32,512 bases of DNA from Deferribacterota bacterium (GTDB lineage Bacteria > Chrysiogenota > Deferribacteres > Deferribacterales > UBA228). The DNA lies in contig JAXHVM010000005.1 in NCBI GenBank assembly GCA_034189185.1, positions 1 through 32,512 on the forward strand, in the 5' to 3' direction. The stretch's first letter is position 1. Every line of letters starts with the position of its first letter. The translations under genes and the position numbers were made by a program. The notes below the pieces were generated by a model. It ran no database searches and was not told the DNA's origin. It was given only the letters and a program-made list of their open reading frames with translations. Below are positions 14,356 to 27,683 of this stretch, piece by piece.

Positions 14356-14736
14356 ATGAATAGTTTAAATGAGAATTTAGTAAGGAGAGCTGTTTTGGGG
14401 GATGGATTAAGGAGGTCTTCTTTGAGATATCCTAACAAGGATGCCCTCATTTACTATTACTCTGATGGAAAAAATGTGAGGTATACATATAAGCGATTAA
14501 ATGAAAAAGTAAATAGAGTTGCAAATGGTTTATTAAATAGGGGTGTAGGCAAGGGAGACAAGATTTCTGTTATATCTCATAATTCTCCAGAGGTGGTTGT
14601 ATTAAGTTATGCTCTTTTAAAAATTGGCGCTTTATATACTCCTTTGAATTTTATGCTTGGAGCTTCTGATATCGAAAGATTAATTAATTTTTCTGGTGCT
14701 AAACTTTTCTTTTTTGTCTGTCTTTTTTATTCTTAG
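14356..14736 (+). pseudogene. truncated acyl-CoA ligase, N-terminal fragment
   Basis: About 117 residues match the N-terminus of an ANL ligase (GDGLRRSSLRYPNKDAL; RYTYKRLNEKVNRVANGLL; GVGKGDKISVISHNSPEVVVLSYALLKIGALYTPLNFML). The homology stops near 14707 at SGAKLF, and the last residues (FVCLFYS) come from foreign DNA: the minus-strand transposase relic that begins there. No P-loop or C-terminal domain exists and no continuation of the ligase was found beyond the relic, so it cannot be active. The spacing from the preceding ligase is 20 bp, without a good ribosome site. Confidence 0.85.
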
Positions 14737-17534: not shown

Positions 17535-19172
17535 ATGGATTTTTTAAAATCCAACGATGCGCTTGGAACAGTGAACAGAGGAAATCCAACTGAGTCAGGT
17601 CTGTGTACGCTATGTATGGCTGACTGTAAGGGAAAATGTGAAACATGGCTCTCCAGCATTAGGGGGAGAAAGATGCTTTATCCAAGAGATTTTGGAGAGA
17701 GTACAGCAGGAAGCTCGAACACTAATTATCTTGGAGCTTCATATTCTAACCTACGCATCCAGGGATATTTATACGGTGCAAAGGGTATTCCAGAAGGACT
17801 GACAAATAATCCGGATGATTGTATTTTTCCCAACACATCTACTGAGACAGAATTTGGGTTTAAAATAAAAACTAAGGTTAAGGTTCCTTTTATAACAGGA
17901 GCACTGGGATCAACATTTGTTGCTGAGAAATACTGGAACCCAATGGCTATTGGCGCTGCTCTTGTTGGTTTTCCAATTGTTATAGGAGAAAATGTTGTTG
18001 GTGTTGATCAAAAATCAAAAATTTCAAATGGCAGAGTAACCGAAGCCCCTGAACTGGATAGGAGAATAAATTCGTTTTTGAGATATTATGATGGTTATGG
18101 GGCGATTATTGTTCAGATGAATGTGGAAGATACAAGAAACGGTGTTGCTGAGTATTTGATAGAAAAATTCGGCAACAAGGTAATTCTTGAATTAAAATGG
18201 GGGCAGGGTGCTAAATGTATAGGCGGAGAAATACAGGTTACAGATTTGGATTATGCAATTTTTTTAAAAAACAGAGGTTATATTGTTGACCCTGATCCAA
18301 CTAAAAAAGAAAATCAGGAGGCTTTTTATAAGCATGCAATCACAAGCTTTGCTAGACACAGCAGGCTTGGCTTTACTGATATGAACAATCCCGATGAAGT
18401 ACATGATTTTTTTATGAATGAAGTGGAAAGACTGAGAAACCTTGGTTTTGAAAGAATTACTTTAAAAACTGGAGCATATGGAATGGCAGAACTTGCTATG
18501 GCTATAAAGCTTGCCACAGAAGCAAATCTAGATCTGCTAACTATAGACGGTTCTGGTGGTGGTACAGGCATGAGTCCTTGGAATATGATGGAGAATTGGG
18601 GTGTACCCTCTCTACACTTACATTCAAAAGCTTTCGAGTATGCGAAAATTATAAAGGAGAAAACAGGAAAAGTTGTTGACTTGGCTTTTGGAGGTGGTTT
18701 TGCAAGAGAAGACCAAATTTTTAAAGCACTTGCATTGGGGGCTCCTTTTACAAAATTGGTGTGCATGGGGCGTTCTATGATGATACCCGCTTTTCTTGGA
18801 TCAAATATTGAAGGTGCTATCTATAAAAACAGAAAAAATAGAGTATTTGGCCACTGGGAAAAACTACCGTCTTCCATTACACAGTTTGGAGCATATCCGG
18901 AGGAAATTTTTGCCAATTATTATGAGGTGGAAGAAAAAGTAGGTAGAGAGGAAATGAAAAATATTCCCTTTGGGGCAATCGGAGTATGGACCCTATGTGA
19001 TAAACTGAAAGGAGGAATTCAGCAATTTATGTCTGGGGCAAGGAAGTTCAATCTGTCAGAACTCAGCAGAAAAGATATTATGTCAGGTAATAGAGAAACA
19101 GCGGAAATAACAGGGATACCTATAATGACTGAATTAAATGATGATAAAGCTAAAGAAATCTTGAATTCCTGA
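17535..19172 (+). CDS. FMN-binding glutamate-synthase-domain protein
   Basis: 545-aa protein matching the FMN/synthase domain of glutamate synthase large subunit (GltB central domain, archaeal stand-alone type). Signatures are GALGSTFVAEKYWNP, IDGSGGGTGMSPWNMMENWGVP (glutamate-synthase phosphate/FMN loop) and FGGGFAREDQIFKALALGA. The N-terminal amidotransferase and C-terminal GXGXG domains are absent. Residues 24-35 carry a four-cysteine motif (C24, C27, C31, C35; CxxC-x3-C-x3-C) able to hold an Fe-S cluster or zinc. Whether it makes glutamate, or is one of the many related FMN oxidoreductases of unknown role, is not determined. It stands alone, with its own upstream gap and a hairpin downstream. 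Confidence 0.85.
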   Translation: MDFLKSNDALGTVNRGNPTESGLCTLCMADCKGKCETWLSSIRGRKMLYPRDFGESTAGSSNTNYLGASYSNLRIQGYLYGAKGIPEGLTNNPDDCIFPNTSTETEFGFKIKTKVKVPFITGALGSTFVAEKYWNPMAIGAALVGFPIVIGENVVGVDQKSKISNGRVTEAPELDRRINSFLRYYDGYGAIIVQMNVEDTRNGVAEYLIEKFGNKVILELKWGQGAKCIGGEIQVTDLDYAIFLKNRGYIVDPDPTKKENQEAFYKHAITSFARHSRLGFTDMNNPDEVHDFFMNEVERLRNLGFERITLKTGAYGMAELAMAIKLATEANLDLLTIDGSGGGTGMSPWNMMENWGVPSLHLHSKAFEYAKIIKEKTGKVVDLAFGGGFAREDQIFKALALGAPFTKLVCMGRSMMIPAFLGSNIEGAIYKNRKNRVFGHWEKLPSSITQFGAYPEEIFANYYEVEEKVGREEMKNIPFGAIGVWTLCDKLKGGIQQFMSGARKFNLSELSRKDIMSGNRETAEITGIPIMTELNDDKAKEILNS

Positions 19173-19524: not shown

Positions 19525-20736
19525 TTAGCTTGATAAGGCATATATGTAGTATGCCTTGCCTTTCTTTAATGATAAATAGTTATCAATTTGTTTGCCTATC
19601 TTTTTTTGTGTTATATATAGATTATAGATAAAACCTGATATAAGTGTATCACCAACCAGAATATAGCCATTAATTTTATCATCCTTTAAATATATTTTTC
19701 TAAAGATATTATTATTTTGATAAGCAATGACTTCACCTTCGAATATCCCCGCAGATATAATTGGGAAATCAATATGTTTTTTTAAAACATTTGTATTGAT
19801 AGATCCTCTAAAAATATTTTTATTAAATAGTATATTATAAGCTGCGCCTCTAGCTTGAATTCTTGCGTTAGGATATGTTGCGTAAATACCGTGAGAGCCT
19901 GTAATCAAATGTTTTGTTAAGGCAACATCCCCAGCTACATATATACTATCATCATATTTAAGTGAATCATCTACCTTGATACCCCCTTCTATACCCAATA
20001 GTTCAGAATTTGGTCTTACCCCAATTGTAATTATTAAAAGGTCAATATTCATAAATGTATTATCGCTTAATAAGACTCCTGTGATTTTTCCGTCTTTACT
20101 ATATATATCTTTTACAACTTTTTTTAATATAATATTAATACCAGTTTTTTCTCTTAATCTCTCAGTAGCAAATACACCTCCTTCAATATCTGTCATTTGG
20201 GATAAGACTCTGTTGTTTCTATGGACAAGAGTAACATTTAATCTACGTTTCCATAAGGAAAGGGCTGCATCTACCCCTATAAAGCCACCACCAAAAACTA
20301 AAGCATTTTTTACCTTTTCTTTTTTAATATACTTATCAATTGATATTATATCTGTTAGATTTTTAAATCCAAATACACCATTTGTTTTTAGCCACTCTTC
20401 TTGAGGGAAGAAACTTCTAGACCCTGGTGCAAATAACAATTTATCGTAAGGGATATGTCTTCCTTTTTGAGTATTTACAACTTTTTTATTGGTATCAATA
20501 TTAATTACTGCATCATTTAGGATAGCTTTAATATTATATCTTTTAAAAAAATCTCTTCTTTTCCAAAAAACAGTCTCAAGTGGTTCTCCTGAAATAAAAA
20601 AGGGTATTGAACATGGTGAATAGGGGATAAAAGGTTCATTTGAAACCATAGTGATATTCTTTTTAAAACCATTTTCTCTTAATGTTGTAACAAATTCAGC
20701 AGCTGCCATACCGCAGCCTACTGTAACTATTTCCAT
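19525..20736 (-). CDS. FAD-dependent NAD(P)H oxidoreductase associated with CO dehydrogenase
   Basis: 403-aa flavoprotein of the pyridine nucleotide-disulfide oxidoreductase fold (NADH oxidase/CoA-disulfide reductase branch). The first Rossmann motif is VGCGMAAAE (residues 6-14). A redox-type Cys42 is in YSPCSIP, as in the Cys43 enzymes. The second nucleotide motif, VFGGGFIGVDAA, is at 147-158, and the FAD motif SIYVAGDVA at 264-272. It begins one base after the ferredoxin stop (TAAAATG) and is the last gene of the coo operon. In other bacteria CODH, CooC, CooF and such an oxidoreductase occur together and are thought to pass CO electrons to NAD(P). That role is inferred from context. Confidence 0.9.
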   Translation of the reverse strand: MEIVTVGCGMAAAEFVTTLRENGFKKNITMVSNEPFIPYSPCSIPFFISGEPLETVFWKRRDFFKRYNIKAILNDAVINIDTNKKVVNTQKGRHIPYDKLLFAPGSRSFFPQEEWLKTNGVFGFKNLTDIISIDKYIKKEKVKNALVFGGGFIGVDAALSLWKRRLNVTLVHRNNRVLSQMTDIEGGVFATERLREKTGINIILKKVVKDIYSKDGKITGVLLSDNTFMNIDLLIITIGVRPNSELLGIEGGIKVDDSLKYDDSIYVAGDVALTKHLITGSHGIYATYPNARIQARGAAYNILFNKNIFRGSINTNVLKKHIDFPIISAGIFEGEVIAYQNNNIFRKIYLKDDKINGYILVGDTLISGFIYNLYITQKKIGKQIDNYLSLKKGKAYYIYALSS

Positions 20737-20737
20737 T

Positions 20738-21313
20738 TTAACCTGCCACTTTTTTTCTAAGCTCCTTATATTGTCTAATATTTTCAGGCTCCTTAGGGGC
20801 TCCTAAAAGAAATGCCTTTAGATCTTTTTTCTCTTTTTTTGTAACATATTCTCTAGCCTCTTTAAATACTAGTGCATTTGTCTTGCAAGATTCAACACAT
20901 GCTGGTAGTTTACCCTTTTTTATTCTACCTGTACAAAAATCACATTTAACTGCGTAATCTCGGTTAAATGGTGAGTTATAAGTTTTTTTAAAGATAATAG
21001 CATCAAATGGGCAGGTCATTGCGCACATTGCACAAGCTTTGCACATATAAGGATCAACTATAACAGCATCAGTTTCCTCATCCCTTTTTAATGCTCCTGA
21101 TGGACATGCATCTATACAATATGCAGGATTGCAGTGCCTACATGAGGAAGCAAAATTTATATAGTCAATTGCTATTACCCGAACGTTACTAAAAGCTTTG
21201 CTATCCCCTACTAAGGTATAAATAGATTTATCAGGATGATGCTCTACAGCACATGCTATTTCACAGGCTTTACACCCGACACATCTTTCATAATCTATAA
21301 ATATTTTTTTCAT
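20738..21313 (-). CDS. CooF-like four-cluster 4Fe-4S ferredoxin subunit
   Basis: 191 aa with sixteen cysteines in four sets: C11, C14, C17, C21; C58, C61, C66, C70; C91, C94, C97, C101; and C124, C127, C139, C143. This is the pattern of CooF/HycB/DmsB electron-transfer subunits with four 4Fe-4S clusters. It has no signal peptide and is cytosolic. The ATG lies 5 to 6 bp after an AGGAGG site inside the end of cooC (26-bp overlap), so translation is probably coupled. It should carry electrons from CooS to the flavoprotein encoded immediately downstream. Confidence 0.9.
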   Translation of the reverse strand: MKKIFIDYERCVGCKACEIACAVEHHPDKSIYTLVGDSKAFSNVRVIAIDYINFASSCRHCNPAYCIDACPSGALKRDEETDAVIVDPYMCKACAMCAMTCPFDAIIFKKTYNSPFNRDYAVKCDFCTGRIKKGKLPACVESCKTNALVFKEAREYVTKKEKKDLKAFLLGAPKEPENIRQYKELRKKVAG

Positions 21314-22151
21314 GAAATTCCTCCTGATTTTTAATGAGATTATTATCTCTCATAACTATTTCACTTAGTTTATTTATCGACTCTCCTACTTCTTTTATTT
21401 TCATAAGATTAGCTATGTTTAATTCTTCGTTTTCTACCTCTTCTATATAGGGTATCTTTATAATAGAGTTAAAATCGTCTTTTAAATTTAAACCTAAAAA
21501 GTGCGATGTCTCCTCTAGTTTTTTTATATGTTTATCTTTGAATTTGTTTAATACTAGATATATTTCTTTTATTCCTAACTCCCTAGATAGTTTTTGTATA
21601 TGCTTTGCAACATCTAGTGCATTAAAAGATGGATCTGCAACAATAAAACATTTATCAAAACCTTTTGCGATTGCTCTTCCAAAATGTTCCACACCTGCCT
21701 GTGTATCCATAACAATATATTGGCCTTTCATTAGAGATATATGCCTAACAACCTTATCTAATAATGCGTTTTCAGGGCATAAACAACCTGCAGCTGCTTT
21801 TTTTACAGTCCCCATAACAAGTATTCCCAAATTATTATTAACTTTTATACCAAATCTTTCTACAACATCGCCTACATCTGGATTTAGCTTAAAGAAGGCT
21901 CCCCAACTTTTACCAGGTCTTGCGCCTGTTTTTTCTTCTATATAATCATCTGCCTTGTTTAGTGGTATAATTTCCTTTATTTTATCGTGAGGAAGTCCCA
22001 ATGTGTATGGAAGATTCATTTGAGGGTCAGCATCTAGTGCTAAAACTGAACACCCCGAATTTGCAAGAACTAAAGACAGCAAGCTTGTTATTGTGCTTTT
22101 CCCTACCCCACCTTTACCGGTTACAACTATTTTTTTCCCATTATTTTCCAT
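21288..22151 (-). CDS. cooC: CO dehydrogenase nickel-insertion ATPase CooC
   Basis: MinD/ParA-type P-loop ATPase that matures the Ni-Fe C-cluster of CooS. The deviant Walker A, GKGGVGKST, is at residues 12-20. DADP follows at 40-43, VMDTQAGVEHF marks switch II, and the CLC pair (C123 and C125) is the CxC metal-binding/dimer motif of CooC. I prefer the ATG at 22151 (MENNGKKIVV), because GGGGGG precedes it at a proper distance and the cooS stop lies one base before it. An in-frame ATG at 22166 inside cooS has no ribosome site. It is encoded between cooS and the ferredoxin gene. Confidence 0.93.
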   Translation of the reverse strand: MENNGKKIVVTGKGGVGKSTITSLLSLVLANSGCSVLALDADPQMNLPYTLGLPHDKIKEIIPLNKADDYIEEKTGARPGKSWGAFFKLNPDVGDVVERFGIKVNNNLGILVMGTVKKAAAGCLCPENALLDKVVRHISLMKGQYIVMDTQAGVEHFGRAIAKGFDKCFIVADPSFNALDVAKHIQKLSRELGIKEIYLVLNKFKDKHIKKLEETSHFLGLNLKDDFNSIIKIPYIEEVENEELNIANLMKIKEVGESINKLSEIVMRDNNLIKNQEEFHEKNIYRL

Positions 22152-22152
22152 A

Positions 22153-24084
22153 TTAACCCCCCACATAGTTAGGCGTCTTTAAACCAAGAGCATTTCTTCT
22201 CTCTAAAATTATCTCTTCCATAATAGATGCAGTTTTATCAACATCGGGTTCAACAAAGAAATATCCATCTATTAGTTCTTTTGCATCCTTTGTTAATATG
22301 TTTAATACTTTTGGGCTGCCAAAAATAGGTGGTATAGGCCATAGATGAACTGGTATGCCTGTTGCAACAAAGTATGATCCAATAGCCACAGCCTTTTCAG
22401 TAGACCATTCTGGAGCTGAACCTACAATGGGCAACATACCTGTATCTACACCTAAATAATCAGCTATTGAGCCTGATAATACTAACAACCTTGAACAATC
22501 AACACATGAACCAAAATGCAGCACAGGCGGTATATTTAGCGTTTTGCATACCTCTTTTAGGGGAACATCTAATTTATCTAAATAACTCATATCCATCATA
22601 CCAGATTTTGCCAAAGCTATTGCCCAACATCCAGTACCAGTAACTAGTATATTTTTTTCAAGTAATTTTTTAGTTAAATTGATATGAAAATAATCTTGAG
22701 TGACCTTTGGATTATTGCAGCCAACAATCGCTGCAATTCCTAATATCTTGCCCTCTTTTATTGCATCAACTAATGGAGCAGGAGTGCCTCCTAATATCTC
22801 TAGTAAACCCTCAACTGAAAATCCCACAGTTGCTTTTTCCTTTATTTTTGGGATATGTATCTTCTCTTTGATTCTGTGTGGATAGTTATCTATTGCAATT
22901 CTTATTATTTTTTCAGCAATTTCATTTGCCCTATCCTCATAAAATTGTATATGCGTGCAATTGGGAAAGTGTGCCTGCTCGCTTGTTGAGATAACTTTTG
23001 TGTGAAAGCAATCTGATAATTTACCAAGTGAAGGATAAATACACTGAACATCAACCACAATAGCCTCTACAGCTCCTGTTGTAATAGCAAGCTCTTGATG
23101 TAGCTCATTACCTGCTACTGGTATTCCTTGCCTTTCTAAAAGCTCGTTTCCTGTGCAACACATGCCAACAACATTTATGCCACTGGCTCCTTTACTTTTA
23201 GCATACTGGATTAGATCTTCTTTTTCTGCAGCCTCAACAACTTTTTCTGAGAGAATTGGTTCATGTCCATTTACAATAATATTTACTGAGCTTTCATCTA
23301 AAACGCCTAAATTCGCATATATCTCCCTATTTTTAGGTAAACCAAATAATACATCTTGAAATTCTGTAGCAAACAAAGATCCACCCCATCCATCTGATAG
23401 GGCACATCTTAAGCCTTGAATGATCAACGTTAGTGGGTCATGGTCACAACCCATATGTGTTCTGTGTAATATGTCTATTGATTCTCTATCTATATTCCTT
23501 GGTAGTAAACCAACCTTATACCCATAATTTTTCTCTACGGCCTTTTCTATATTTTTAAGCTTTTCTACCCTTTTTTTAGGCATGTAAGAGTCTACTGTTG
23601 CCATTGGATCTTCATCTTGCCTGCCATAACAATCAAGTGCAATATGGGCTACCTTTTTTGCTAACTTTTCATAAGAATCATTTTTGTTATATATATTAAA
23701 TTTCTTTGCTATTTCTTTTAATTTATTTGGCTCTTTAATACGATAATCACTTATTTTACCTTCAGCTATTTCTTTTAATAGTATACTTGGTTTTCTACCA
23801 TGATCTGAATGTGCTGATGCACCTGCTGCTATCATTCTAATTAAATTTCTAGCAACAATAGCATCAGCATCGGCGCCACATACACCGTATTTAGGCTCGT
23901 CACCATATGGGTTTATCCTGCATGGCCCCATAGAGCAATTTTTACAACAAACACCTAATTCACCATATCCACATTGTGGTTTTTGGGCTTCTAATCTGCT
24001 CCATATATTATCATAATCATTTTTATCTATAATCTTTAGCATTTCCCTTGCAGCTTTATCAACAGAGCGTTTTTCATCTAACAT
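22153..24084 (-). CDS. cooS: anaerobic Ni-Fe carbon monoxide dehydrogenase catalytic subunit
   Basis: Oxidises CO with water to CO2, two protons and two electrons. From the ATG at 24084 (GGAGGT 7 bp upstream) it has 643 aa. All cluster ligands are visible: D-cluster C38 and C46; B-cluster C47, C50, C55 and C69; C-cluster His274 (NGHEP), the GMCC cysteine pair at 309-310, C348, C456, C486 and C527. Lys564 corresponds to the catalytic lysine. This numbering runs one off from C. hydrogenoformans CODH-II for the N-terminal cysteines, which supports the chosen start; a TTG 12 bp upstream lies within the ribosome site. No acetyl-CoA synthase gene is adjacent, so this is a monofunctional enzyme. Confidence 0.97.
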   Translation of the reverse strand: MLDEKRSVDKAAREMLKIIDKNDYDNIWSRLEAQKPQCGYGELGVCCKNCSMGPCRINPYGDEPKYGVCGADADAIVARNLIRMIAAGASAHSDHGRKPSILLKEIAEGKISDYRIKEPNKLKEIAKKFNIYNKNDSYEKLAKKVAHIALDCYGRQDEDPMATVDSYMPKKRVEKLKNIEKAVEKNYGYKVGLLPRNIDRESIDILHRTHMGCDHDPLTLIIQGLRCALSDGWGGSLFATEFQDVLFGLPKNREIYANLGVLDESSVNIIVNGHEPILSEKVVEAAEKEDLIQYAKSKGASGINVVGMCCTGNELLERQGIPVAGNELHQELAITTGAVEAIVVDVQCIYPSLGKLSDCFHTKVISTSEQAHFPNCTHIQFYEDRANEIAEKIIRIAIDNYPHRIKEKIHIPKIKEKATVGFSVEGLLEILGGTPAPLVDAIKEGKILGIAAIVGCNNPKVTQDYFHINLTKKLLEKNILVTGTGCWAIALAKSGMMDMSYLDKLDVPLKEVCKTLNIPPVLHFGSCVDCSRLLVLSGSIADYLGVDTGMLPIVGSAPEWSTEKAVAIGSYFVATGIPVHLWPIPPIFGSPKVLNILTKDAKELIDGYFFVEPDVDKTASIMEEIILERRNALGLKTPNYVGG

Positions 24085-24152
24085 ATAAACCTCCAATAAA
24101 ATATTTTTCTACTTTTTATAGTAACTATGTAATTAATTTAATAAAGGAATAA

Positions 24153-24196
24153 ATTGTAGAATGTTAAAACTATATATTAAAGTTTATATTAACTTT
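24153..24196 (-). promoter_or_regulatory. candidate coo promoter with operator
   Basis: On the minus strand a TACAAT -10 (24158-24153) has only a poor -35 (TTTAAT, spacer 17), as expected of an activated promoter. Overlapping and upstream of that -35 lies an inverted repeat AAAGTT-6 nt-AACTTT (24196-24179), the best candidate for regulator binding. Two AGTT cores also occur as direct repeats 23 bp apart, near the spacing used by LytTR-domain proteins. Confidence 0.35.
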
Positions 24197-24205
24197 GCGA
24201 ATTGC

Positions 24206-24910
24206 TTATTTTAATCCAATGAAGCTTTTAAATTCTTCCTTTCTTGATCGACTAATGGGTATTTTATTTTTATAAAACTTCATATTAATACTCAATCCAT
24301 GTGGATCTTTTATTATTTTTTCGATATAGTGCATATTAATTATATAGCTTCTATGAACCCTAAAAAATTTTTTTGTATCTAATCTTTCTTCTAAGCTACT
24401 GATTGTAAACTCAGATAAAAAGTTATCATCTGCAGTAAACAATCTTGTATAGATGTTTTCAGCCTTTATAAATATTATGTTATCAACACTTAAAAGATTG
24501 ATTTCTTTATTTTTTAATATAGGGATATAGTTTAGTATTTTCTCTTCTTCATCTGATAAAATATCACTCACATCAAATGTTAAAAGGCAATAATTGTAGT
24601 CATCATTTTTACTATAAATCTTTATTAGTTTTATCATTAAATATTTATGTCTGCCTAGGGAGTCATATTTTTTTAATGTAAAAGGAAGCTGCTCTTCAGT
24701 TTTATTTATATGGTAAATCATCTTTTTAATTTTTTCTCGAATTTTACTGCTATGAAAGTGAAAAATATCATTTTGAAAAATTTCATCTTTTGTAAACTCA
24801 TGAAATTGTGATAAAAATATTCTATTAATATATAGTATAGTATAATTCTTGCTAGAAAATATTAGAATACCTGGCTCTATATGCTCTAGATTGATTCTTT
24901 TATTATCCAT
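24206..24910 (-). CDS. PAS-LytTR transcriptional regulator, RcoM-like candidate CO sensor
   Basis: 234-aa single-component regulator. Residues about 8-115 form a PAS domain (GILIFSSKNYTILYINR; FHEFTKDEIF), and about 135-232 a LytTR DNA-binding domain (INLLSVDNIIFIKAENIYTRLF; FFRVHRSYIIN; IPISRSRKEEF). There is no receiver domain or membrane segment. This order and size match RcoM, the haem-PAS-LytTR CO sensor of aerobic CO oxidisers, whose haem is held by a His and a Met. His51 or His53 (DIFHFHSSKIREKI) and Met92 (KYLMIKL) are candidate ligands here. It lies 121 bp upstream of cooS on the same strand, and 5 bp after the tatD-family gene. Haem binding is inferred, not shown. Confidence 0.85.
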   Translation of the reverse strand: MDNKRINLEHIEPGILIFSSKNYTILYINRIFLSQFHEFTKDEIFQNDIFHFHSSKIREKIKKMIYHINKTEEQLPFTLKKYDSLGRHKYLMIKLIKIYSKNDDYNYCLLTFDVSDILSDEEEKILNYIPILKNKEINLLSVDNIIFIKAENIYTRLFTADDNFLSEFTISSLEERLDTKKFFRVHRSYIINMHYIEKIIKDPHGLSINMKFYKNKIPISRSRKEEFKSFIGLK

Positions 24911-24915
24911 TGTGA

Positions 24916-25770
24916 TTATTGATTGAAAAACAATCTCTCTACATTTTCTTCAAATATCCTTAGACAACTATCTAGTGGTTTATTAATAACTTTATGTACA
25001 GTATAAAGGGTATAGATTATATTTACTGGTTCATTCCTTTTGCCTCTATATGGCATAGGGGATAAGAAAGGACAATCTGTTTCAAGGATTATTCTACTTA
25101 ATGGTATTTTTGAAATAGCCGATCTTAACTCTGAAGATTTTGTGAAGGTAACATTACCTGCAAAGGAGAAGTAAAGATTATTTTTTATGCCAAATTCTAA
25201 TAGTTTTTTATCACCATTAAAACAGTGTAGCACACCCTTTATTTGATTGTTTTTTTTGATAAAGTTGGCTGCTATATCTATAAGATCATTTGATGCACTT
25301 CTACAATGTATTATTATAGGTTTATTGTGTTTTTTTGCTTGATGTAGAAAATAGTCAAAATATTTTTTTTGTACATTGATATTTGTTGTATCCCTATAGT
25401 AATCTAGGCCTGTTTCACCGATTGCTATGCATTTCTTATCATTAAAAATCTCATTAAAGAAGGTATCATCCTCCCTAAATTCAGATATTTCTGTTGGATG
25501 GTATGCTGCAGCAAAATATATGTTGTTATAAGAATGTGCTATCTTTGATGCTTTAATTATATCATCTTTATTAATTCCCACAGTTATTAATCTTTTAACA
25601 CCGAAATCTAAAGCCCTTTTTATAGCCTCTTCTAAGTCTTCATTAAAGTTATTAAAGTGAATATGGCTGTGAGTGTCTGTTATACTATATCCACTATCCA
25701 AAAGATTTTTAATTTCCTTTAGATAGTCTTTATGTATGGCACTGTCTTTTTTCTTTATACACAACTCCAT
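24916..25770 (-). CDS. TatD-family metal-dependent hydrolase/DNase
   Basis: TIM-barrel metal hydrolase of the TatD/YcfH family. Metal ligands are visible: H34 and H36 (DTHSH), E119 (IGETGLDYY), H155 (IIHCR), H182 (LHCFNG) and D232 (ETDCPFLSP). The protein has 284 aa, with about 30 residues before the usual start of the domain; the ATG lacks a good ribosome site, so coupling to metG (stop 2 bp before) is likely. The metG-tatD order is common across bacteria. Family members are 3'-5' DNases or of uncertain substrate. Confidence 0.92.
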   Translation of the reverse strand: MELCIKKKDSAIHKDYLKEIKNLLDSGYSITDTHSHIHFNNFNEDLEEAIKRALDFGVKRLITVGINKDDIIKASKIAHSYNNIYFAAAYHPTEISEFREDDTFFNEIFNDKKCIAIGETGLDYYRDTTNINVQKKYFDYFLHQAKKHNKPIIIHCRSASNDLIDIAANFIKKNNQIKGVLHCFNGDKKLLEFGIKNNLYFSFAGNVTFTKSSELRSAISKIPLSRIILETDCPFLSPMPYRGKRNEPVNIIYTLYTVHKVINKPLDSCLRIFEENVERLFFNQ

Positions 25771-25772
25771 AA

Positions 25773-27683
25773 TTATTTGATTTTTGTTCCCTCTTTTATT
25801 GTATCTGGCACAAAGATAGCGCTTACCTTATTTTCTTCACTTGCTGCAAGAAGCATGCCCTCCGATAGTTCACCCATTAGTTTTGCTGGCTTTAAATTAT
25901 TTATTATAAGGATTTTTTTCTCTATTAATTCCTCAGGTTTATAGGATTCAGCGATTCCTGCTACAATTTGTTTTTTTCTATCCCCTACATCAACTAGTAA
26001 TTTTAGGAGTCTATTAGAACCTTTGATTTGTTGTGCATGCAAGATCTTTGCTACCCTTATATCAATCTTTTTGAAATATTCTATGTCTACTAGATTCTCT
26101 TTTGAGAGTTCTGAGGTTATTTTGTTGTGCATTTCTTCTACTTTGATCTTCTCATCTACTCTTGGGAATAGAGGTTCTCCTTTTTTGATTACGGCCCCAT
26201 CTTGTAATTTAAATAGGGTCAATTCTTTGGTAAAAGATTTATTTTCAATGCTTTCTTCAAGCGAGAGTTGTTTTCTAATTTTTTCTGAGGTATGAGGCAT
26301 AAAAGGGTATATCAACAATGAGATTATCCTTATTGAATCCATAATTATATACATAACAGATCCTAATCTTTTTCTATATTTGTCTGATTTTGCCAAATTC
26401 CAAGGTTTTGTTGTATCTATATATTTATTCAAAGCACTAATTAATTCCCAAATAGCTGCTAAAGCTTTGCTAAATTCTAAGTTGTTCATAAAGGAGTCTA
26501 CATTATCTATAGTTTTATTAACTGTTTCTATAATAGCAGAATCAGCCATCTCTTTTTCTTCATATTTTGGCATAATGCCACCAAAATATTTTTCCATCAT
26601 ATTCACTGATCGATTTATAAGGTTACCAAGATCATTTGCTAGGTCACTATTTATTCTATGTATTAGTGTTTTAAATGAGAAATCCCCATCAAGCCCAAAA
26701 GTTACCTCTCTTAATAAAAAATATCTTATTGGATCAACACCAAAATTCTCTATTAAAAAGATTGGATTAATGGCGTTACCTAGAGATTTAGACATTTTTT
26801 GACCTTCAATTGTCCACCAGCCGTGTGCAAATACACATTTAGGCAATTCTTCTTCTATGCTCATTAATATTGTAGGCCAATATACTGTGTGGAATCTGAG
26901 AATATCTTTTCCAACTAGATGATAGTCAGCTGGCCAATATTTTTTAAAATTATCTCCTTCTTTATAATAATCTAGAGCAGAGATATAATTTGTTAAAGCA
27001 TCAACCCAAACATAGATAACATGGTTTGGATCATTAGGCATTTTAACCCCCCAATCAAAGGAGGTTCTACTTATAGAAAGATCCCTTAATCCCTCTTCTA
27101 CAAATGAAATAATTTCATTTCTTCTCGATTGGGGTTTTATAAATCCTGGGTGTTCTTTTATATGTTTTAGAAGTTTTTCTTGATATTTTGACATTCTGAA
27201 GAAATATGAGGGTTCTTTTATTCTTTCAGTTTGTCTGCCACATGAGGGGCATACATTGCCGTCTAACAATTGGGTTTCCGTCCAATATGTTTCGCAGGGT
27301 GTGCAATACCACCCTTCATAATGCCCTAAATAGATATCCCCTTTATCTATCATTTTATTAATTATTTTTTGTAATGTAAGTTTATGTTCATTATCTGTGG
27401 TTCTTATAAACTTTGAATATTTTATATTTAACTTCTCCCATAAATTTTTAAATCTCTCGACAACATTATCAGCAAGTTCTTTAGGGTGAACCCCTTTTTC
27501 TTTTGCTGCTTTTTCAATTTTAAGGCCATGTTCATCAGTGCCAGTCAGGAAGAATACATCATAGCCTAACATCCTTTTATATCGAGCAATTGTATCTGCA
27601 GCTATTGTTGTATAGGCATGTCCTAAATGGGGAATATCATTTACATAATATATTGGGGTAGTTACATAAAATGTTTTATTCAT
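25773..27683 (-). CDS. metG: methionyl-tRNA synthetase
   Basis: Charges tRNA-Met with methionine in the cytosol. 636 aa. The HIGH-type motif is HLGH at residues 19-22. The single zinc knuckle has C127, C130, C145 and C148. KMSKS is at 296-300. The anticodon-binding helical domain follows, and residues about 535-636 are the EMAP/Trbp111-type tRNA-binding domain (FKKIDIRVAKILHAQQI; VGDRKKQIVAGIAESY) that dimerises the enzyme. The start overlaps the ricT stop by 4 bp, so translation is coupled. Confidence 0.97.
   Translation of the reverse strand: MNKTFYVTTPIYYVNDIPHLGHAYTTIAADTIARYKRMLGYDVFFLTGTDEHGLKIEKAAKEKGVHPKELADNVVERFKNLWEKLNIKYSKFIRTTDNEHKLTLQKIINKMIDKGDIYLGHYEGWYCTPCETYWTETQLLDGNVCPSCGRQTERIKEPSYFFRMSKYQEKLLKHIKEHPGFIKPQSRRNEIISFVEEGLRDLSISRTSFDWGVKMPNDPNHVIYVWVDALTNYISALDYYKEGDNFKKYWPADYHLVGKDILRFHTVYWPTILMSIEEELPKCVFAHGWWTIEGQKMSKSLGNAINPIFLIENFGVDPIRYFLLREVTFGLDGDFSFKTLIHRINSDLANDLGNLINRSVNMMEKYFGGIMPKYEEKEMADSAIIETVNKTIDNVDSFMNNLEFSKALAAIWELISALNKYIDTTKPWNLAKSDKYRKRLGSVMYIIMDSIRIISLLIYPFMPHTSEKIRKQLSLEESIENKSFTKELTLFKLQDGAVIKKGEPLFPRVDEKIKVEEMHNKITSELSKENLVDIEYFKKIDIRVAKILHAQQIKGSNRLLKLLVDVGDRKKQIVAGIAESYKPEELIEKKILIINNLKPAKLMGELSEGMLLAASEENKVSAIFVPDTIKEGTKIK

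Follow-up and report, generated by a model that had tools for sequence, protein, structure and literature searches.

A predicted RcoM-family regulator upstream of the anaerobic CO dehydrogenase operon of a Deferribacterota bacterium belongs to a clade without Met104

In Geobacter sulfurreducens the gene GSU2099, which encodes an RcoM of 232 residues, precedes cooS-cooC-cooF-FNOR; the gene order is the same in other Geobacter and in Pelobacter, and RcoM control together with an electron flow CooS-CooF-FNOR-NAD(P) has been proposed for Geobacter (PMC4703632). Deferribacter autotrophicus, which grows on CO with nitrate, has the CO dehydrogenase (CODH) cluster CODH-I with the order rcoM-cooS-cooC-cooF-FNOR (PMC6896113), and in Rubrivivax gelatinosus rcoM is found among the coo genes, so that RcoM again occurs with an anaerobic CODH (PMC4257681). 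The reduced form of RcoM has His/Met heme ligation (PMC9670170), Met104 being the CO-replaceable ligand according to the title of Bowman 2016 as cited there. The RcoM1 operator consists of three repeats TTCNNGCA spaced 12-13 bp (PMC11347149).

The window that we analyzed, a stretch of 32,512 nucleotides from a Deferribacterota metagenome-assembled genome (MAG), carries five genes in the order rcoM-cooS-cooC-cooF-FNOR on one strand, with metG and tatD ahead of them:

25773-27683, minus strand: metG, methionyl-tRNA synthetase, upstream of tatD (named from its translation; order as in locus L003)
24916-25770, minus strand: tatD, 5 bp ahead of rcoM
24206-24910, minus strand: RcoM-like PAS-LytTR regulator, 234 residues, ATG start; His53 is the equivalent of RcoM His74
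24085-24205, minus strand: rcoM-cooS gap of 121 bp, presumed to hold the cooS promoter and operator
22153-24084, minus strand: cooS, catalytic subunit of anaerobic Ni-Fe CODH, 643 residues (TIGR01702)
21288-22166, minus strand: cooC-like nickel-insertion ATPase, a P-loop NTPase (~50-53% to its cooC counterpart in the equivalent Geobacter-type cluster)
20738-21313, minus strand: cooF-like 4Fe-4S ferredoxin
19525-20736, minus strand: FNOR, FAD-NAD(P) oxidoreductase

The window CooS scored 680 bits against TIGR01702 (cut-off 478) and has all of the active-site Cys/His motifs expected of this enzyme (GHEP, GMCCTG, DVQC, VGCNN, GTGC, and SCVDC), which we take to be the C-cluster ligands; its gene is the sole cooS of the 96%-complete genome. 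The mechanical open reading frame of cooS begins further upstream, at a TTG, and the likely start is the ATG at 24084, which has a GGAGG Shine-Dalgarno sequence at 24094-24090; with this start the rcoM-cooS gap is exactly 121 bp. The whole order metG-tatD-rcoM-cooS-cooC-cooF-FNOR is identical in the congener UBA4806 (a Deferribacterales MAG of the same genus as the host, of which L003 and L021 are one locus), and the five-gene order from rcoM onward was found in L021, L144-L146, L148, and L149. Since the order rcoM-cooS recurs in the congener and in other phyla, the adjacency of rcoM and cooS is not due to chance. Two further observations were made on the plus strand of the window: a 126-residue open reading frame at 14356-14736, whose match to an AMP-binding acyl-CoA synthetase is confined to the N-terminal part before the frame stops, is probably a truncated or frameshifted gene, and the gene of a glutamate-synthase-domain protein (17535-19172) and the end of the coo operon converge, with no evident link between the two.

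The locus thus resembles GSU2099-GSU2095 of G. sulfurreducens in the five genes and their order, in the size of the regulator (234 versus 232 residues), and in the presence of a single CODH per genome, whereas it differs in its host and in the position of rcoM after metG-tatD. The likeness to CODH-I of D. autotrophicus extends over the cluster and its gene order in a member of the same phylum, although a CooA homolog and a further, second CODH are present in D. autotrophicus, against one cooS in the window's genome. The initial annotation had implied that an RcoM beside an anaerobic CODH was novel, but an identical cluster has been published for Geobacter (PMC4703632) and for D. autotrophicus (PMC6896113); because the arrangement is on record for Geobacter, Deferribacter, and Rubrivivax, the premise that it is unusual is out of date, and the window cluster is in essence a further instance of a system already known.

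A Pfam search of the window regulator found a LytTR domain at residues 136-231 (E-value 3.3e-23), a PAS_9 match at residues 14-111 that is below the Pfam cut-off (4.6e-4), and no receiver domain. A confident AlphaFold2 model (mean pLDDT 87.8) showed a PAS followed by a LytTR domain, and Foldseek searches with this model returned the LytTR structure 3d6w and PAS structures of the LOV/DosP type; no solved RcoM structure was identified by sequence, whether the query was the window protein, the family profile, or a cox-linked RcoM. Together with the coordinates, these results bear out the original description of a 234-residue PAS-LytTR protein without a receiver domain, encoded 121 bp upstream of cooS on the same strand. 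The regulator is thus a single-component protein with an N-terminal PAS and a C-terminal LytTR domain, the architecture of the wider RcoM family. The same genome has a second PAS-LytTR gene, cut by the contig end (L002/L150, G000 contig 158; 1468-1920 of L002), and both this paralog and its congener copy (L015) are missing the heme His.

By similarity we collected 36 full-length PAS-LytTR relatives, none of them in viral contigs, and scored their neighborhoods with the coo proteins of the window and the cox proteins of Paraburkholderia. A CODH gene was found beside the regulator in 31 of the 36, this being cooS in 26 and cox (coxMSL) in five; the remaining five RcoM-like genes (L024, L120, L122, L132, and L137; loci L139-L143) had no cooS or cox within ~9 kb or up to the contig end. 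In Thermodesulfatator-like genomes (loci L027, L113, L114, L115, and L117) rcoM is downstream of cooS, not upstream. Another member of the order has a LytTR-like fragment that is interrupted by a stop (1501-1749 of L018; L147, G008 contig 10, 37813-38061), which adjoins a second CODH cluster (cooF-cooS ... cooC-FNOR) and is possibly a decayed regulator.

In a maximum-likelihood tree, one branch (support 100/99) parts the relatives into two clades. The window clade, with 23 sequences, holds the window regulator, those of other Deferribacterota, and Deferrisoma-like, Thermodesulfatator-like, and Geobacter-type sequences (the last, L129-L131, so called because they share the gene order published for Geobacter), and any CODH gene linked to its members is cooS; the sister clade, with 13, holds cox-linked Pseudomonadota, cooS-linked Pseudomonadota (L135 and L136), and cooS-linked Desulfobacteraceae-like sequences. 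As this tree was built without a distant non-heme PAS-LytTR outgroup, the test for clustering with non-heme PAS-LytTR proteins rests on the profile search. PAS-only profiles built from cox-linked and other Pseudomonadota RcoM placed nearly all CODH-linked regulators above the other open reading frames of the same loci (2340 in all); only toward the lower end of the regulators' ranking were a few further PAS proteins interspersed. The Pseudomonadota RcoM profile matched the window protein with an E-value of 2e-5 and its congener with 1.7e-11, and a profile from cox RcoM alone matched the window protein weakly (6.6e-4). The relationship to RcoM suggested in the initial annotation was therefore upheld, the window protein grouping with cox-linked RcoM by PAS profile and as a sister clade, at an identity of only ~24-27%. 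By these sequence comparisons we place the window regulator in the wider RcoM family, where it falls in the anaerobic-CODH clade and probably acts as a one-component sensor of CO.

We consider it very probable that the protein is a heme-based CO sensor that activates cooS-cooC-cooF-FNOR from the 121-bp gap and is itself expressed separately; in this scheme we infer heme binding, a response to CO, activation rather than repression, and the path of the electrons. His53, where the long PAS helix begins, would hold the heme, and CO binding to the ferrous heme would change the PAS-LytTR dimer, which would then bind three direct repeats in the gap and activate the operon; electrons from CO would pass from CooS via CooF and FNOR to NAD(P). 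The host genome encodes a ferrochelatase, so heme synthesis is possible. Being 5 bp after tatD, rcoM probably rides on the metG-tatD transcript, and read-through of this kind would keep the regulator at a basal level and leave only the enzyme operon CO-inducible. Separate expression of regulator and enzyme operon suits the finding that in G. sulfurreducens the CooSCF/FNOR proteins, and not RcoM, are raised under H2 or formate (PMC7894505). The earlier proposal that an RcoM-like sensor controls this Ni-Fe CODH electron-transfer operon is supported by the homology and the gene order, together with the invariant His and the operator-like repeats.

Within the gap we noted three candidate direct repeats:

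24195-24201, minus strand: direct repeat 1, TTCGCAA
24175-24181, minus strand: direct repeat 2, TTTAATA (weak)
24154-24160, minus strand: direct repeat 3, TCTACAA

The half-site first came to notice during visual inspection that included the window sequence. The repeat matrix was trained on nine half-sites from the Geobacter-type loci only, the gaps of which hold three TTCACAA-like repeats with periods of 21 and 20 bp; repeats with a 21-bp period were also seen at some of the examined cox loci. With this matrix, triples of 20-21 bp period were found in the gaps of the window, L021, L004, and L005, where 0, 2, 1, and 0 of 1000 shuffles were as good (p ≤ 0.002 each); the window triple has a 20/21-bp period, and the shuffles, none of which reached its score, preserved dinucleotides. 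In the same matrix scan most Deferrisoma-type gaps and one Thermodesulfobacteria-type gap showed weak repeats or none. An unrestricted scan of the 32.5-kb window found two other places that outscore the candidate operator, so the repeats are suggestive of an RcoM-type operator layout and not proof of it.

Such a layout would also suit a repressor that is released by CO. CoxC of Afipia carboxidovorans, an MHYT-LytTR protein, is likewise a LytTR CO regulator with three direct repeats, which overlap the -35 box, and it acts as a repressor (PMC11347149); in the window a weak -35 candidate is directly beside repeat 3. However, CoxC is membrane-bound and copper-dependent, the window protein has no MHYT domain, and characterized RcoM and most LytTR proteins are activators (PMC11347149). 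Moreover, in the loci compared repeat 3 precedes the cooS start by ~60-82 nt, so that a promoter could fit downstream of the repeat, and we regard repression as unlikely.

The candidate heme ligands of the window protein were compared with those of RcoM-1 and RcoM-2 of Paraburkholderia xenovorans, which are aerobic and cox-linked. These share with it the PAS-LytTR architecture, the proximal His, and a triple direct-repeat operator of 20-21 bp period (a candidate in the window), and they serve a Mo CODH whereas the window regulator would serve a Ni-Fe CODH. We assigned the positions of His74, Cys94, and Met104 in the Paraburkholderia protein from the intervals between them (20 and 30 residues), taking His74 and Cys94 to be the RcoM residue numbers of heme ligands. 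The residue aligning with His74, His53 in the window, is kept in all 36 relatives and is located in the turn that leads into the long PAS helix in both AlphaFold models; no His is present at this position in the two same-genus paralogs L002 and L015. Among the ligands first proposed, His53 therefore stands as a candidate by its invariance, while His51 varies among the relatives and Met92 varies between Met, Leu, and Phe and aligns ten residues after Met104 rather than with it, so that neither was retained. The Cys94-bearing insertion is absent from the window regulator, as it is from most Met-type members, and the loop after the strand with the Met104 position is three residues longer in the window than in P. 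xenovorans. Met104 itself was found in 13 of 13 sequences of the sister clade and in none of the 23 of the window clade, which have a hydrophobic residue there (Leu79 in the window). Because cooS-linked members are present in both clades, retention of Met104 follows phylogeny and not CODH type.

If heme is bound at all, this loss means that CO-dependent ligand exchange must differ in the window clade from that of characterized RcoM. We tentatively suggest, with somewhat more doubt than belief, that the anaerobic-CODH clade senses CO by a heme chemistry other than that of RcoM-1/2, with either a five-coordinate ferrous heme or another distal ligand. For the latter Lys80 would be a weak candidate: it directly follows the Met104 position on the same strand and is invariant in the window clade (23/23), but as it is also carried by the His-less paralogs it is poor evidence of heme ligation, and its role as distal ligand was not supported. 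Were the chemistry of the clade indeed different, CO would trigger the LytTR domain without a Met-to-CO ligand swap.

The loss of Met104 would also suit a CODH-linked PAS-LytTR regulator that senses something other than CO via heme, such as redox state, electron-donor status, or another small ligand; the rise of the G. sulfurreducens cluster proteins with H2 or formate (PMC7894505) points the same way, and the same-genus paralogs indicate that the fold works without the His. Still, His53 is among the very few invariant PAS residues and is common to heme-binding RcoM, and the linkage takes in cox as well as coo enzymes, which have CO in common, so we hold a signal other than CO to be quite improbable. 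That the regulator simply belongs to a metG-tatD operon and has no control over cooS, as the 5 bp between tatD and the regulator in the window's genus might suggest, is very hard to credit, since outside the genus cooS stays adjacent though the upstream genes differ.

With CO activation as the preferred reading, the window cluster adds one more lineage to the published CO-respiration module, and the loss of Met104 across its clade is the one less expected point and the sole part that merits experiment. The RcoM family splits cleanly into a clade that keeps both axial ligands, beside cox or coo, and a clade that keeps only the His, beside Ni-Fe CODH in Deferribacterota, Deferrisoma-like, Thermodesulfatator-like, and Geobacter-type bacteria, and this split makes the need of a distal Met for CO sensing directly testable.
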